Program-made: the position numbers and the translations under genes
Assembly (NCBI GenBank): GCA_020402945.1
Contig: JADBYQ010000029.1
Location: 1 to 64,000 of the forward strand
DNA length: 64,000 nt
Source of the DNA: Cytophagales bacterium
GTDB lineage: Bacteria; Bacteroidota; Bacteroidia; Cytophagales; Cyclobacteriaceae
Direction of reading: 5' to 3'
The notes under the pieces: model-generated
Told to the model about the DNA's origin: nothing
What the model saw: the letters and a program-made list of their open reading frames with translations, nothing else
The model's database searches: none
In this document: in pieces, positions 30,170 through 52,077 of the stretch
How positions within the stretch are numbered: the first letter of the stretch is position 1
Layout of the letters: the number at the start of each line of letters is the position of its first letter

Positions 30170-30314
30170 TTTTAAAAAAGTTTAAAGGTTTGAAAAAAGA
30201 ATAAAAGGCTGAAAATGAAACGATGAAAATGCACTGATAGGAACCTGCAGAATCCTGACACTACATTCTTCAAATGAATCACAGTCGCTTTTTACCCGAA
30301 GCACTGATATTAAT

Positions 30315-30475
30315 TGCATTTCGGCAGGTCTCCTGGCTCTCCACATTCGCTAACGCCTTCCCATCCGCCTAAGGCGGACAGTGGCTTAGATAGTTAGTTC
30401 ATTACGTGGACTACAGTTGCGGGAACAGCCCCCGAATCGAACGGGGTTCCCTTTTAATCTTCTGATGATGTAACT
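30315..30475 (-). promoter_or_regulatory. Cobalamin riboswitch
   Basis: Reading the minus strand: AAAAGGGAACCCCGTTCGAT, then GGGGGCTGTTCCCGCAACTG, GCCACTG (followed by a small stem CCGCC/GGCGG), GGGAAGGCG and the B12-box GAGCCAGGAGACCTGCCG. These are the ordered conserved elements of the adenosyl/methylcobalamin aptamer. It lies about 150 nt before the TonB receptor start, between a TATGTTTG promoter and the gene, so binding of B12 is expected to reduce expression of btuB and any read-through genes. Confidence 0.93.
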
Positions 30476-30500
30476 CAACAGAAAAACCGCAATACGGGCG

Positions 30501-30508
30501 CAAACATA
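30501..30508 (-). promoter_or_regulatory. Putative -7 element (TATGTTTG) of the cobalamin riboswitch transcript
   Basis: TATGTTTG on the minus strand fits TAnnTTTG and sits 30-40 nt before the first conserved riboswitch block. Confidence 0.5.
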
Positions 30509-47092: not shown

Positions 47093-47839
47093 ATGAAACT
47101 ACTGCAAAATAGAACTGCGCTCATCACAGGCGCCTCCAAAGGAATAGGCAAAGCCATCGCGATCAAATTTGCCGAGCAAGGTGCCAACGTTGCCTTTACC
47201 TATTTATCAAGTGTAGAACAAGGCCAAGCGTTGGAGGCAGAACTGGCTGCCAAAGGTGTGAAGGCAAAAGGCTATCGCTCCGATGCTTCAGATTTCGCAC
47301 AAGCTGATAAACTAATCAATAATGTGGTGACTGAATTTGGCTCTCTGGATATTCTAGTGAACAATGCCGGCATCACGATGGACAATTTGCTGCTTCGAAT
47401 GACAGAAGAGGCGTGGGACAAAATCATCAACGTAAATTTGAAATCGTGCTTCAATACCGTAAAAGCTGCCTGCAAACCCATGATGAAACAAAAAGGAGGC
47501 TCCATTATTAACATGACCTCCGTTGTAGGGCTGAAAGGAAATGCTGGTCAAGCAAATTATGCGGCATCCAAAGCAGGTATTATTGGATTCACAAAATCAA
47601 TCGCGTTAGAGTTAGGTTCACGCGGCATCCGATCTAACGCCATTGCTCCTGGTTTTATCGAAACCGAAATGACAGGCAAGCTGGATGAAAAAACAGTGCA
47701 AAGCTGGCGCGATGCGATTCCATTAAAGAGAGGTGGTAAACCCGAAGACGTGGCCGATGCATGTGTGTTTTTAGCATCGGATATGTCGACTTACATTTCG
47801 GGGCAGGTTATACAGGTAGATGGAGGAATGCTGACATAA
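47093..47839 (+). CDS. fabG: 3-oxoacyl-[acyl-carrier-protein] reductase
   Basis: Second-step reductase of fatty acid elongation. A 248-residue SDR with GASKGIGKA (14-22), NNAGIT, the catalytic Ser in NMTSVVG, YAASKAG (Tyr/Lys), and the typical end VFLASDMSTYISGQVIQVDGGM. It matches FabG closely in length and ending. It stands alone, divergent from lpd. Confidence 0.9.
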   Translation: MKLLQNRTALITGASKGIGKAIAIKFAEQGANVAFTYLSSVEQGQALEAELAAKGVKAKGYRSDASDFAQADKLINNVVTEFGSLDILVNNAGITMDNLLLRMTEEAWDKIINVNLKSCFNTVKAACKPMMKQKGGSIINMTSVVGLKGNAGQANYAASKAGIIGFTKSIALELGSRGIRSNAIAPGFIETEMTGKLDEKTVQSWRDAIPLKRGGKPEDVADACVFLASDMSTYISGQVIQVDGGMLT

Positions 47840-47927
47840 AAAGCATTTTGTCTATCTACTTTTTCAATCTAAATGTATTACCAAACACTTGTGAGTAAAA
47901 CTTTCTTAACAAATTTTTAAGTAAGCA

Positions 47928-47959
47928 TTTGGAAACTCTACTAAACTAGTATACGTTTG
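47928..47959 (+). promoter_or_regulatory. Promoter of the methionine block (TTTG-20 nt-TACGTTTG)
   Basis: A -33 type TTTG (47928-47931) and a -7 element TACGTTTG (47952-47959) precede the SAM-I riboswitch by about 30 nt. Confidence 0.55.
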
Positions 47960-47990
47960 TGTCATCATAATCGGTGAAGCCAAAAGCCAA

Positions 47991-48098
47991 CCGATTTATA
48001 TAGAAGCGTGGAGAGAACAGGCTCTTTGAAACGCTAGCAACCCCGAAAAAGGTGCTAATTCCTGCCTCAAAGAAGGTCTTTGAGGAAATATAAACCGG
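47991..48098 (+). promoter_or_regulatory. SAM-I (S-box) riboswitch
   Basis: P1 is CCGATTTATA (47991-48000) with TATAAACCGG (48089-48098). Between are GCGTGGAGAGAACAGGC, TTTGAAACGCTAGCAACC and AAAGGTGCTAATTCCTGCC, the conserved core of SAM-I aptamers, and a P4-like CTCAAAGA/TCTTTGAG hairpin. SAM binding stabilises P1. The ATG of a short leader ORF begins only 1 nt after P1, so the helix could also mask its initiation site. Confidence 0.92.
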
Positions 48099-48099
48099 T

Positions 48100-48222
48100 A
48101 TGAAAATGAAAAGATTTATCATTCAGTCAATCACCCAAGGGAAACACCTCCTCCTAAATTTCTTTTATTCCATTCAATATCAACAGTGCAGCATGTGTTG
48201 TTGCTCTGTACGTTGTTGGTAA
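48100..48222 (+). CDS. Cysteine-rich leader peptide (40 residues)
   Basis: A short ORF from ATG 48100 to TAA 48220-48222, right after the SAM riboswitch. The first 29 residues carry no Cys; the last eleven are CSMCCCSVRCW, with Cys at 30, 33, 34, 35 and 39. This is the pattern of leader peptides that sense the supply of a charged tRNA, as described for polycysteine leaders in mycobacteria. The Cys codons overlap two RNA segments that compete for the same downstream partner. I know of no homolog. Confidence 0.55.
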   Translation: MKMKRFIIQSITQGKHLLLNFFYSIQYQQCSMCCCSVRCW

Positions 48223-48300
48223 TGATCGGTTGATCGTCCAACAACACACTAGCGCACGGCCTACCGAGTGACGGGTATGGTTATGGCTAAGTTTTCTTCT
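48194..48300 (+). promoter_or_regulatory. Predicted attenuator with mutually exclusive hairpins
   Basis: CAACAACACA (48239-48248) can pair with TGTGTTGTTG (48194-48203, over the CCC codons). Alternatively CCAACAAC (48238-48245) pairs with GTTGTTGG (48212-48219, over the last Cys/Trp codons), extended inside by ATGATC/GATCGT. The two helices cannot coexist, as in classical attenuation. A third weak stem (GCCTACC with GGTA-t-GGT, 48259-48281) precedes a T-rich run GTTTTCTTCT (48291-48300). Which state terminates is not clear. Confidence 0.5.
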
Positions 48301-48307
48301 ACGTTAA

Positions 48308-49678
<1,371 letters not shown>

Positions 49679-49752: not shown

Positions 49753-50847
49753 ATGATAAAATCAGAATCCATCTTTCATTTTGAAGAAGAGTTTGAGTTA
49801 GAGTCGGGGGCAAAGCTCCCCGGCTTTCAACTTAAATACACTACGTTAGGGCAGTTGAACAAAGACAGAAGCAACGTGGTTTGGATTTGTCATGCCCTCA
49901 CGGGCAGCTCTGACTTTACGGATTGGTGGAAAGATTTTTTCGTAGAAGGAAGCCCCTTTGACCCGCGCGATTATTTTATCATCTGTGCGAATACACTGGG
50001 TGGATGTTATGGCTCAACCGGGCCGCTGTCAATTAATCCTGCCACAGGCAAAAGCTATTTTCATGATTTTCCTCTGACTACCAATAGGGACATCATACAA
50101 GCGTTTGATCTGCTTCGACAAGATTTGGGAATTAACAAAGTCCACACTCTAATAGGTGGGTCGCTGGGAGGCCAGCAAACGCTGGAGTGGGCGATCGCGC
50201 AACCTTCGGTGTTTGATCACCTAATCGCTATTGCCTGCAATGCGCAACATTCGCCATGGGGAATTGCCTTCAATGAAGCCCAGCGGATGGCCATTGAAGC
50301 AGATGTCACCTGGAAAGAGAACGATGCAAGAGCAGGAATTGAAGGGATGAAGGCAGCTAGAGCGATGGGAATGATTTCTTACAGAACGTATGACACCTAT
50401 CTATCAACTCAATCCGAGAAAGGGATTGAAAAAATAGACAACTACAGAGCGGCTTCGTATCAAAAATACCAAGGCCAAAAACTAGCAAGTCGTTTTAACG
50501 CATTTACTTATTGGACACTTTCAAAAGCAATGGACAGTCACCATGTAGGTAGAGGAAGGGGTAGCGTGTCAAATGCATTGAAACAAATAAAAGCTAAAAC
50601 ATTGGTAGTAGGAATAGAGAATGATTTGTTATACCCAGTTCAAGAGCAAAAGTCTCTGGCAGACGCCATCCCCGGTGCTGTGTTTGAAGGACTCACTTCG
50701 CTCTATGGGCATGATGGATTCTTGGTAGAGTTTGATCAGTTTAAGAATATCGTAAGGAGATTCTTGCGTGCAGAAACAAAAAACAATGAACGAGTGTTGC
50801 AAGAAACACCGTACGACTTCAAATCATTAGAAGACTATAATCAGTAA
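49753..50847 (+). CDS. metX: Homoserine O-acetyltransferase
   Basis: A 364-residue alpha/beta-fold acetyltransferase. The nucleophile elbow is GGSLGGQQ with Ser137, HALTGSSD is the oxyanion region and FDPRDYFIICANTLGGCYGSTGP the MetX signature; the final GHDGFL carries the catalytic His. It produces the substrate of the upstream MetY. The start is 74 nt after metY and its stop is 3 nt before hom. Confidence 0.93.
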   Translation: MIKSESIFHFEEEFELESGAKLPGFQLKYTTLGQLNKDRSNVVWICHALTGSSDFTDWWKDFFVEGSPFDPRDYFIICANTLGGCYGSTGPLSINPATGKSYFHDFPLTTNRDIIQAFDLLRQDLGINKVHTLIGGSLGGQQTLEWAIAQPSVFDHLIAIACNAQHSPWGIAFNEAQRMAIEADVTWKENDARAGIEGMKAARAMGMISYRTYDTYLSTQSEKGIEKIDNYRAASYQKYQGQKLASRFNAFTYWTLSKAMDSHHVGRGRGSVSNALKQIKAKTLVVGIENDLLYPVQEQKSLADAIPGAVFEGLTSLYGHDGFLVEFDQFKNIVRRFLRAETKNNERVLQETPYDFKSLEDYNQ

Positions 50848-50850
50848 AAA

Positions 50851-52077
50851 ATGAAGAAAAAATTAAAAATCGGTTTGTTTGGTTTTGGTGTAGTAGGGCA
50901 AGGCCTTTATCATGTACTCAACGAAACACATGGTGTAAAAGCAGAGATCAAAAAGATATGCGTTAAAAACAAAGACAAGCAGCGCAATCTGGATAGCGCC
51001 ATTTTTACGTACGAAAAGAATGACATTCTCTTCGATCCTGACATTGACATTGTTGTCGAACTTATCGATGATGCCTCCGCAGCTTTTGAAATCGTAAAGG
51101 CAGCCTTGCGCAACGGTAAACATGTGGTTACCGCGAACAAGAGAATGTTGGCCGAAAATCTTCAGGAGATTTACTCTCTCCAGAAAAGATATGACCGTTC
51201 TGTTCTTTACGAGGGGTCGGTTTGCGGAAGCATACCTATTTTAAGAAATCTGGAGGAATATTATGACAATGATTTGATCACTAGTATTGAAGGAATTTTT
51301 AATGGCTCTACCAATTACATTTTAACGAAGGTCTTTGAAGAAAGAAAAAGTTATACAGAGGCGTTAAAAGCTGCACAAGATCTTGGCTTTGCCGAAAGCG
51401 ATCCCTCGCTAGATGTGAAAGGATATGATGCCAAATTCAAGTTGACGATCGCCATCGCTCATACGTTTGGCGTATTTGTCAAACCAGAGAAAATCATCAA
51501 CGTGGGTATTGATAAAATCTCTGCGGTGGATCTAAAGTACGCAAGGGAAAATAATCTAACCATCAAGTTGGTGGCACGTGCCTACAAGCTGGGGGGCAAA
51601 ATTGTTGGCTTTGTTGCTCCTCAATTCATTCCTTCCGACCACATGCTCGCTTCAGTTCGCAACGAGTACAATGCGGTCTTAGTGGAGGGTGCTTTTGCCG
51701 AGAAGCAGGTTTTTATTGGAAAAGGGGCTGGAGGTTACCCTACAGGTTCGGCTGTACTTTCTGACATTTCAGCCTTAACTTTTGATTATCGCTACGAATA
51801 CAAAAAGTTCACACAAGGCGAGGGATTCTCCTTCTCTAACAGCGCCAAAGTAGATGTTGTCATTAGTTTTAACGAAAAGTCAGCCATCTCACCCTCAGAT
51901 TTCGAGACTTTCAAAGGCGGCTACCAAGGAACCGGGCACCAGTATATGACCGGCTCAATCTCTCTTGAAAAACTACAATCACTATCGAAACGGGAGGATG
52001 TAAGTGTCATTCTGGCGCCCCAGTTGAACTTAGACGCTACTGAACAAAACGCGGCTAAAGAGGTTTTGGCCGTTTGA
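50851..52077 (+). CDS. hom: Homoserine dehydrogenase
   Basis: Reduces aspartate semialdehyde to homoserine. A 408-residue protein with the Rossmann motif GLFGFGVVGQG, VVTANKRMLAENLQEI, YEGSVCGSIPILRNL and the catalytic segment GIFNGSTNYILTKVFE..AAQDLGFAESDPSLDVKGYDAKFKL. There is no aspartokinase domain and the C-terminal ACT-like part appears reduced. It lies 3 nt after metX, completing a short homoserine-to-homocysteine block; a terminator follows. Confidence 0.92.
   Translation: MKKKLKIGLFGFGVVGQGLYHVLNETHGVKAEIKKICVKNKDKQRNLDSAIFTYEKNDILFDPDIDIVVELIDDASAAFEIVKAALRNGKHVVTANKRMLAENLQEIYSLQKRYDRSVLYEGSVCGSIPILRNLEEYYDNDLITSIEGIFNGSTNYILTKVFEERKSYTEALKAAQDLGFAESDPSLDVKGYDAKFKLTIAIAHTFGVFVKPEKIINVGIDKISAVDLKYARENNLTIKLVARAYKLGGKIVGFVAPQFIPSDHMLASVRNEYNAVLVEGAFAEKQVFIGKGAGGYPTGSAVLSDISALTFDYRYEYKKFTQGEGFSFSNSAKVDVVISFNEKSAISPSDFETFKGGYQGTGHQYMTGSISLEKLQSLSKREDVSVILAPQLNLDATEQNAAKEVLAV

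Follow-up and report, generated by a model that had tools for sequence, protein, structure and literature searches.

Introduction

Short leader ORFs in which runs of Cys codons lie close to the stop codon have been described in Actinobacteria (mycobacteria, Propionibacterium and Bifidobacterium), where they stand before cys or cbs genes; in the part of that report available to us, they are said to have no conserved terminator, and Rho is suggested as the agent (PMC1262725). Cys-responsive attenuators have been published for mycobacteria, and the same bacteria have riboswitch-linked upstream ORFs (uORFs), namely those of the B12 riboswitches (metE, ppe2) and of the Mbox riboswitch (pe20). The Mbox riboswitch is described, in the accessible text, as controlling its small ORF, with Rho ending transcription. 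The Bacteroidota, in turn, are described in the sources available as largely devoid of Shine-Dalgarno sites.

Riboswitch-linked uORFs and poly-Cys leaders are known; what appears to be new is a SAM-I riboswitch joined to a Cys leader, which is the arrangement analyzed here upstream of metY-metX-hom. The initial annotation of the window, that is, of the whole 64,000-nucleotide stretch of DNA presented above, knew of no earlier description of this coupling. In agreement with it, no report of SAM-I with a Cys leader was among the matches listed in a full-text search, most subscription journals being outside its reach.

Results

Layout of the locus

The features of the locus are collected in Table 1. 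The match to RF00162 covers the whole model, positions 1-108 of 108, which places the aptamer in the SAM-I family. Its P1 stem is extendable by the pairing of 47990-47992 with 48097-48099, such that the extended P1 reaches the base preceding the AUG of the leader ORF. The placement of the aptamer right against an ORF start, proposed from the sequence at the outset, proved right: RF00162 spans 47993-48096, the extended P1 goes up to 48099 and the AUG is at 48100. So did the description of the ORF, which has 40 codons, no Cys in codons 1-29 and all five Cys within the last eleven, the C-terminal end reading CSMCCCSVRCW. Profile matches confirmed that the operon is metY-metX-hom; for metX the best-scoring model is TIGR01392, with a score of 345.9, below its cut-off of 500.

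Table 1. Features of the SAM-I/metY locus in the window (coordinates are those of the window).
Feature	Position	Strand	Remarks
Putative Bacteroidota-type promoter	47928..47959	+	TTTGG 47928-47932, TACGTTTG 47952-47959
5' anti-P1 hairpin	47970..47995	+	Predicted; ATCGGT 47970-47975 with ACCGAT 47990-47995
SAM-I riboswitch aptamer	47993..48096	+	RF00162, 76 bits, gathering threshold 44.4
Extended P1, 3' strand (TATAAACCGGT)	48089..48099	+	Pairs with 47990-48000, one A-C mismatch; ends at leader AUG
Leader ORF	48100..48222	+	40 codons, five Cys in last eleven; same placement and Cys run seen in relatives
Alternative pairing	48194..48248	+	48194-48203 complementary to 48239-48248
Hairpin A, last codons and stop	48212..48245	+	Predicted; 48212-48219/48238-48245, plus 48222-48227/48232-48237
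Hairpin B, loop with GTGAC	48249..48291	+	Covariation in relatives
metY, O-acetylhomoserine sulfhydrylase	48356..49678	+	TIGR01326, 673.5 bits, cut-off 495.1
metX, homoserine O-acetyltransferase	49753..50847	+	NF001209, 332.9 bits, cut-off 331
hom, homoserine dehydrogenase	50851..52077	+	NF004976, 335.9 bits, cut-off 205

The putative promoter was called with what we take to be the Bacteroidota consensus, and stretches resembling it are present in relatives; a sigma-70 promoter scan returned nothing on the plus strand here. The window also has a cobalamin riboswitch at 30306-30506 on the minus strand (101.4 bits).

Recurrence of the Cys leader at metY loci

The loci compared were our own choice from among the matches listed: 196 loci, 195 of them with a metY match, 189 distinct and 160 with SAM-I upstream, the latter located with nhmmer, the model having been built from 74 aptamers that come mostly from these same loci. 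Leader ORFs were defined as having 12-90 codons and ATG starts only, and Cys leaders as having at least three Cys in the last 12 codons; the start had to lie within 30, 70 or 90 nt of the aptamer, depending on the count. With the 30-nt limit, 99 of the 160 SAM-I/metY loci have a Cys leader, vs 20/8000 for dinucleotide shuffles and 1/160 for the reverse strand, so that the conservation in relatives on which the initial annotation had staked its proposal holds for both the ORF and the Cys codons. With the 90-nt limit the count is 102/160. In the first survey, SAM-I was found upstream by Rfam in 73/80 metY loci (the best 80 of 585 confirmed) and, adding the window, 54/74 loci had a Cys-leader ORF with its ATG at most 70 nt from the aptamer.

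Cys leaders were found in Chryseolinea, Chryseosolibacter, Parachryseolinea, Cesiribacter, Marivirga and Fulvivirga, as well as in Hymenobacter, Mucilaginibacter, Solitalea, Pararhodonellum and many MAGs; Algoriphagus is mostly without them. Outside the order of the window, one of the 18 loci examined has a Cys leader (L207), and therefore the leader is not phylum-wide. Of the SAM-I/metY loci without a Cys leader, 39/58 nevertheless show an ATG at 7-12 nt past the aptamer (4.4 expected), and therefore the link between riboswitch and ORF is wider than the Cys run.

Some loci depart from this layout. In some Chitinophagaceae and at other loci, a Cys leader near metY was seen with the SAM-I end at least 460 nt upstream (L088, L117 and L141) or with no SAM-I found (L099, L187, L189), so the two modules can come apart. 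At L186, L232, L238, L242, L341, L350 and L353, SAM-I is followed by very short leaders like MLYxQQCMPxxAY with one or two Cys, in which the sequence rather than a run seems to be kept.

Conservation of the Cys codons

In the 102 leaders, Cys accounts for 45.8% of the last 12 codons vs 1.8% of those before, and 74 leaders have Cys as the terminal codon. The last 12 codons are likewise enriched in Met (8.7% vs 2.0%), often beside the Cys run, and Met sensing is possible. Codons were compared in 36 leader pairs, ten of which are clear homologs in our judgement. In these ten pairs, 47 of 64 Cys codons are identical, 8 show TGT/TGC changes and 9 other changes; the figures for Cys codons over all 36 pairs are 252, with 70 synonymous and 50 other changes. 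The non-Cys codons of the ten pairs differ 106 times at positions 1 and 2 and 85 times at position 3, as would be expected of a leader body that is only weakly constrained. A run of sensed codons kept while the rest of the ORF drifts is the hallmark of a Cys attenuator, and the persistence of the Cys codons in a body that appears to be under such weak constraint favours codon sensing.

The peptide itself is poorly conserved. Used as a protein query against 98 genomes, it found its own copy as the only significant match, all others having E >0.05; a close relative outside this set (L064) has a leader peptide 80% identical. Beyond the Cys run, the leader peptides are mostly unrelated and the Cys spacing varies.

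A hairpin 5' of the aptamer predicted to compete with P1

The RNA 5' of the aptamer contains a strand complementary to the 5' end of P1, for which the bases from P1 to the AUG are a second possible partner. In the window, the competing strands are 47970-47975, 47990-47995 and 48095-48099, the last of which touches the AUG. The P1/AUG layout was compared in 143 and the hairpin counted in 145 of the 160 SAM-I/metY loci, the rest lacking complete aptamer ends or an anchor motif. Relatives have a layout like the extended P1 of the window. Folding predicts the anti-P1 hairpin, formed with the P1 extension, in 90/99 Cys-leader loci and in 36/37 leader-ORF loci without a Cys run (mean z -2.1 and -2.4). 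Together these make 126/136 leader-ORF loci, vs 4/9 others (z -0.7). The rule is loose, as 15/22 loci of the GATAAG class (see below) pass too with weaker hairpins (mean -4.8 vs -9.5 kcal/mol); 15/16 TATAAA-end loci also pass. The extra P1 pairs are modestly above a swapped-locus control (4.79 vs 4.09 for Cys leaders, 6.30 vs 5.17 for others). Since the 5' hairpin is a potential competitor of an extended P1 that abuts the leader AUG, SAM most likely blocks translation of the leader.

Specificity among SAM-I loci

The genome of the window has four SAM-I loci. Neither the one before a metB/CGL-like gene, which has a strong terminator, nor the one before metH has a Cys leader; the labels metH, metB-like, metF, metK and metX, beyond the profile-typed genes, are those we presume from N-terminal sequence. 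The remaining one (L004/L260, contig C45) is a second SAM-I with a Cys leader, which ends in KCCCC and stands before a YceI gene (PF04264). The gene that follows reads, by eye, like a thioredoxin-type lipoprotein, and we know of no sulfur role for these genes.

A further 39 SAM-I loci were compared, including one before metY (L284) and one that repeats another (L299, which repeats L024). P1 ends are of two main kinds, GATAAG/GATGAG and TATAAA. At non-metY loci with GATAAG/GATGAG ends, at least three terminal Cys were found in 0/23 and 0/20; at loci with TATAAA ends, in 5/16 (L270, L284, L289, L296, L299). The genes at TATAAA-end loci include metX, metY, a PAPS reductase (PF01507), an NhaC-like transporter, an HPP protein (PF04982) and one metH. 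The association with P1 ends has exceptions: at two Hymenobacter loci (L138, L142), a GATAAGT end goes together with a Cys leader before metY. At L276, L279, L280, L289 and L299, SAM-I was seen ahead of metX-like genes, and the leaders there terminate in CC or CCC.

The RNA between the leader and metY

The two alternative pairings of 48238-48248 (CCAACAACACA) claimed in the initial annotation are exact, as this segment is complementary to 48194-48203 (10 pairs), over the Cys triplet, and to 48212-48219 (8 pairs), over the last Cys codon. RNAfold favours the pairing with 48212-48219, as a hairpin across the stop codon, and the RNAalifold consensus fold picks the Cys-triplet alternative helix, which has no covariation in the alignment of relatives because its columns hardly vary. 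Hairpin A, over or just past the stop codon, appears in 10/10 single folds (the window and nine relatives), with z from -0.05 to -2.74 and energies mostly close to shuffles. In the window, 12/200 shuffles fold as well for 48190-48300 and 2/200 for 48204-48300; the predicted hairpins alone appear only modestly unusual.

Hairpin B was evaluated in 21 loci picked by the conserved loop, with a structure derived from single folds before the counting on alignment A2, and thus chosen after looking. Its cells are 84.2% paired, 28 of them changed on both sides vs 11.5 (sd 3.7) in shuffled alignments and at most 9 when slid; two of five measures are not above shuffles (both-side-changed pairs, 7 vs 5.0, reached by 73/500; pair types, 15 vs 15.4). 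RNAalifold on A2 found three pairs. The loop letters GTGAC are present in 20/21 aligned loci, and the lower stem differs in L084. Hairpins A and B belong to one clade only, other clades having different hairpins there. Two candidates were discarded: a second uORF starting inside hairpin B, the ATG of which is not kept in all relatives, and an Rfam family in 48098-48360, where a relaxed threshold gave one match of E 2.1, taken as chance.

A terminator scan of 47800-48500 gave 0 matches. The window has a U-rich stretch behind hairpin B, a tail that many relatives have not kept, and a U-tract after the leader is not conserved among relatives. Weak terminator-like matches occur in 26/102 leader regions vs 10% in shuffles, and 10 of the 26 use the Cys codons as T-run; the rule that detects them is a weak positive control, since it found 6/22 in the terminator-type class. 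The mutually exclusive terminator and antiterminator of an attenuator were not found here. Between the leader stop and metY, C is more frequent than G in 92/93 loci vs 32/63 control flanks of other genes (p 6e-16), so that the uORF is followed by C-rich, G-poor RNA as in Rho leaders. The same bias is found in loci without a Cys run (0.128, n=32) and in the leader ORF itself (96/99); the first 100 metY codons show it weakly (mean 0.041, with positive values in 95/102). RNA with C over G resembles Rho loading sites. Because of this bias and of the missing conserved U-tract, our best guess is that a Rho-type attenuation would act between the leader and metY.

The cysteine route

Of the 27 genomes examined, 16 combine CysK above cut-off with a cysE-like match, which scores 158-177 bits and never attains the curated 210.65; the other 11, that of the window included, have cysE at 60 bits or less and no CysK above cut-off, their best CysK-type match being mostly 302-325 bits. 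In the window's genome, no cysE match exceeds 49 bits; its best CysK-type match is a cystathionine beta-synthase (510.7 bits, cut-off 510.25), and the second is SbnA-like. Over 138 genomes with a metY locus, taking E below 1e-99 as CysK present and counting G089 (no match) and G153 and G170 (not among the matches listed) as without, a Cys leader is found in 41/46 genomes without CysK vs 49/92 with it (Fisher 2.2e-5, kinship ignored). One locus in this comparison lies at a contig end (L301), and one genome with CCCC ahead of the last 12 codons (G244) was counted as having no Cys leader. By genus-and-CysK unit, the figures are 25/30 vs 16/35 (p 0.002, not tree-corrected). The link is a correlation, and 49 genomes with CysK also have the leader. 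Were MetY the chief point at which sulfide enters, homocysteine would be the source of cysteine, and a joint control by SAM and cysteine would be expected.

Discussion

We propose, with somewhat better than even confidence, that the region upstream of metY-metX-hom is a two-input leader that reads SAM and cysteine. SAM binding would stabilize the extended P1, whose 3' strand lies against the leader AUG, such that the leader would not be translated. Without SAM, the hairpin at the RNA 5' end would take the 5' strand of P1 and the AUG would be free. The translating ribosome would then reach the run of Cys codons against the stop, pause there if charged Cys-tRNA is scarce, and cover the beginning of hairpin A together with the C-rich stretch that follows. 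RNA neither translated nor covered would be terminated before metY, most likely by Rho, and expression of metY-metX-hom would peak when SAM and cysteine are both low. Of the dual logic first suggested for this locus, the coupling stands, since it recurs across genera with the Cys codons kept, and the anti-P1 hairpin and the extended P1 fit a block of the leader start by SAM. The selection of one of two hairpins by a stalled ribosome has fared worse, as there is no conserved U-tract terminator and the Cys-triplet hairpin is without covariation.

A broader formulation, which we offer tentatively and at rather less than even chances, is that one ORF is read twice as an AND gate for sulfur amino acids. 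SAM would gate initiation through the 5' anti-P1 hairpin, and Cys, perhaps Met, would gate elongation; the leader would be common in the order of the window and present in other Bacteroidota orders, its Cys half being kept above all where MetY is also the entry of cysteine.

Translation of the leader might instead open the metY start or allow reinitiation there, without early termination. The hairpins between leader and gene would suit such a mechanism, and expression of the mycobacterial ppe2 is stated, in the portion of the report available, to need translation of its riboswitch-linked uORF. However, the leader stop is at least 75 nt from the metY ATG (median 133), which is far for coupling, an unsystematic look noticed no conserved pairing with the metY start, and the C-over-G bias speaks against it, such that we consider this version unlikely. 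Attenuation at an intrinsic terminator, switched by the Cys-triplet and last-Cys-codon hairpins, is less likely still: both pairings are possible, hairpin B of the window has its U-rich stretch and terminator-like matches exceed those of shuffles, but the scan of the window was empty, the U-rich tail is missing in many relatives, over a third of those matches have the Cys codons themselves as T-run and the alternative helix does not covary. Cys clusters bind metal and a copper-responsive uORF has been published, as far as its available text tells, but that the peptide acts itself via Cys, e.g. by metal or thiol binding as a nascent chain or small protein, is highly improbable for peptides that are mostly unrelated beyond a Cys run of varying spacing, and that run abuts the stop as codon sensing would predict.

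The two-input leader, if true, would be a natural two-signal gate in which a metabolite sensor and a ribosome sensor act on one short ORF, and it would explain why SAM-I before metY is often ~250 nt from the gene. One genome has different leaders behind one aptamer class. Regulatory wiring would be tied to pathway wiring, that is, to the presence or absence of CysK, which is testable across species.

The closest relatives of this arrangement are the actinobacterial poly-Cys leaders, with which it shares a Cys-codon run near the stop and no conserved terminator; unlike here, the accessible text of that report mentions no riboswitch, concerns another phylum and other genes and calls the mycobacterial ORFs leaderless (PMC1262725). 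The mycobacterial B12 and Mbox leaders likewise couple a riboswitch to a small upstream ORF, but the ligands are others and the available descriptions mention no amino-acid codon run. The uORFC-8-2 motif before cysS of Rhodobacterales, as presented in the available text, has two tandem Cys codons in the leader of a cysteine-related gene, whereas it has an intrinsic terminator with a U-run, no riboswitch, and belongs to alphaproteobacteria (PMC8632094). Finally, the translational mode described for SAM-I, in the part of the report at hand, has the 3' side of P1 carry the ribosome binding site (PMC2258182), as the leader start is placed here; in contrast to that mode, the start is that of a leader ORF and not of the enzyme, and the competing hairpin is 5' of the aptamer.
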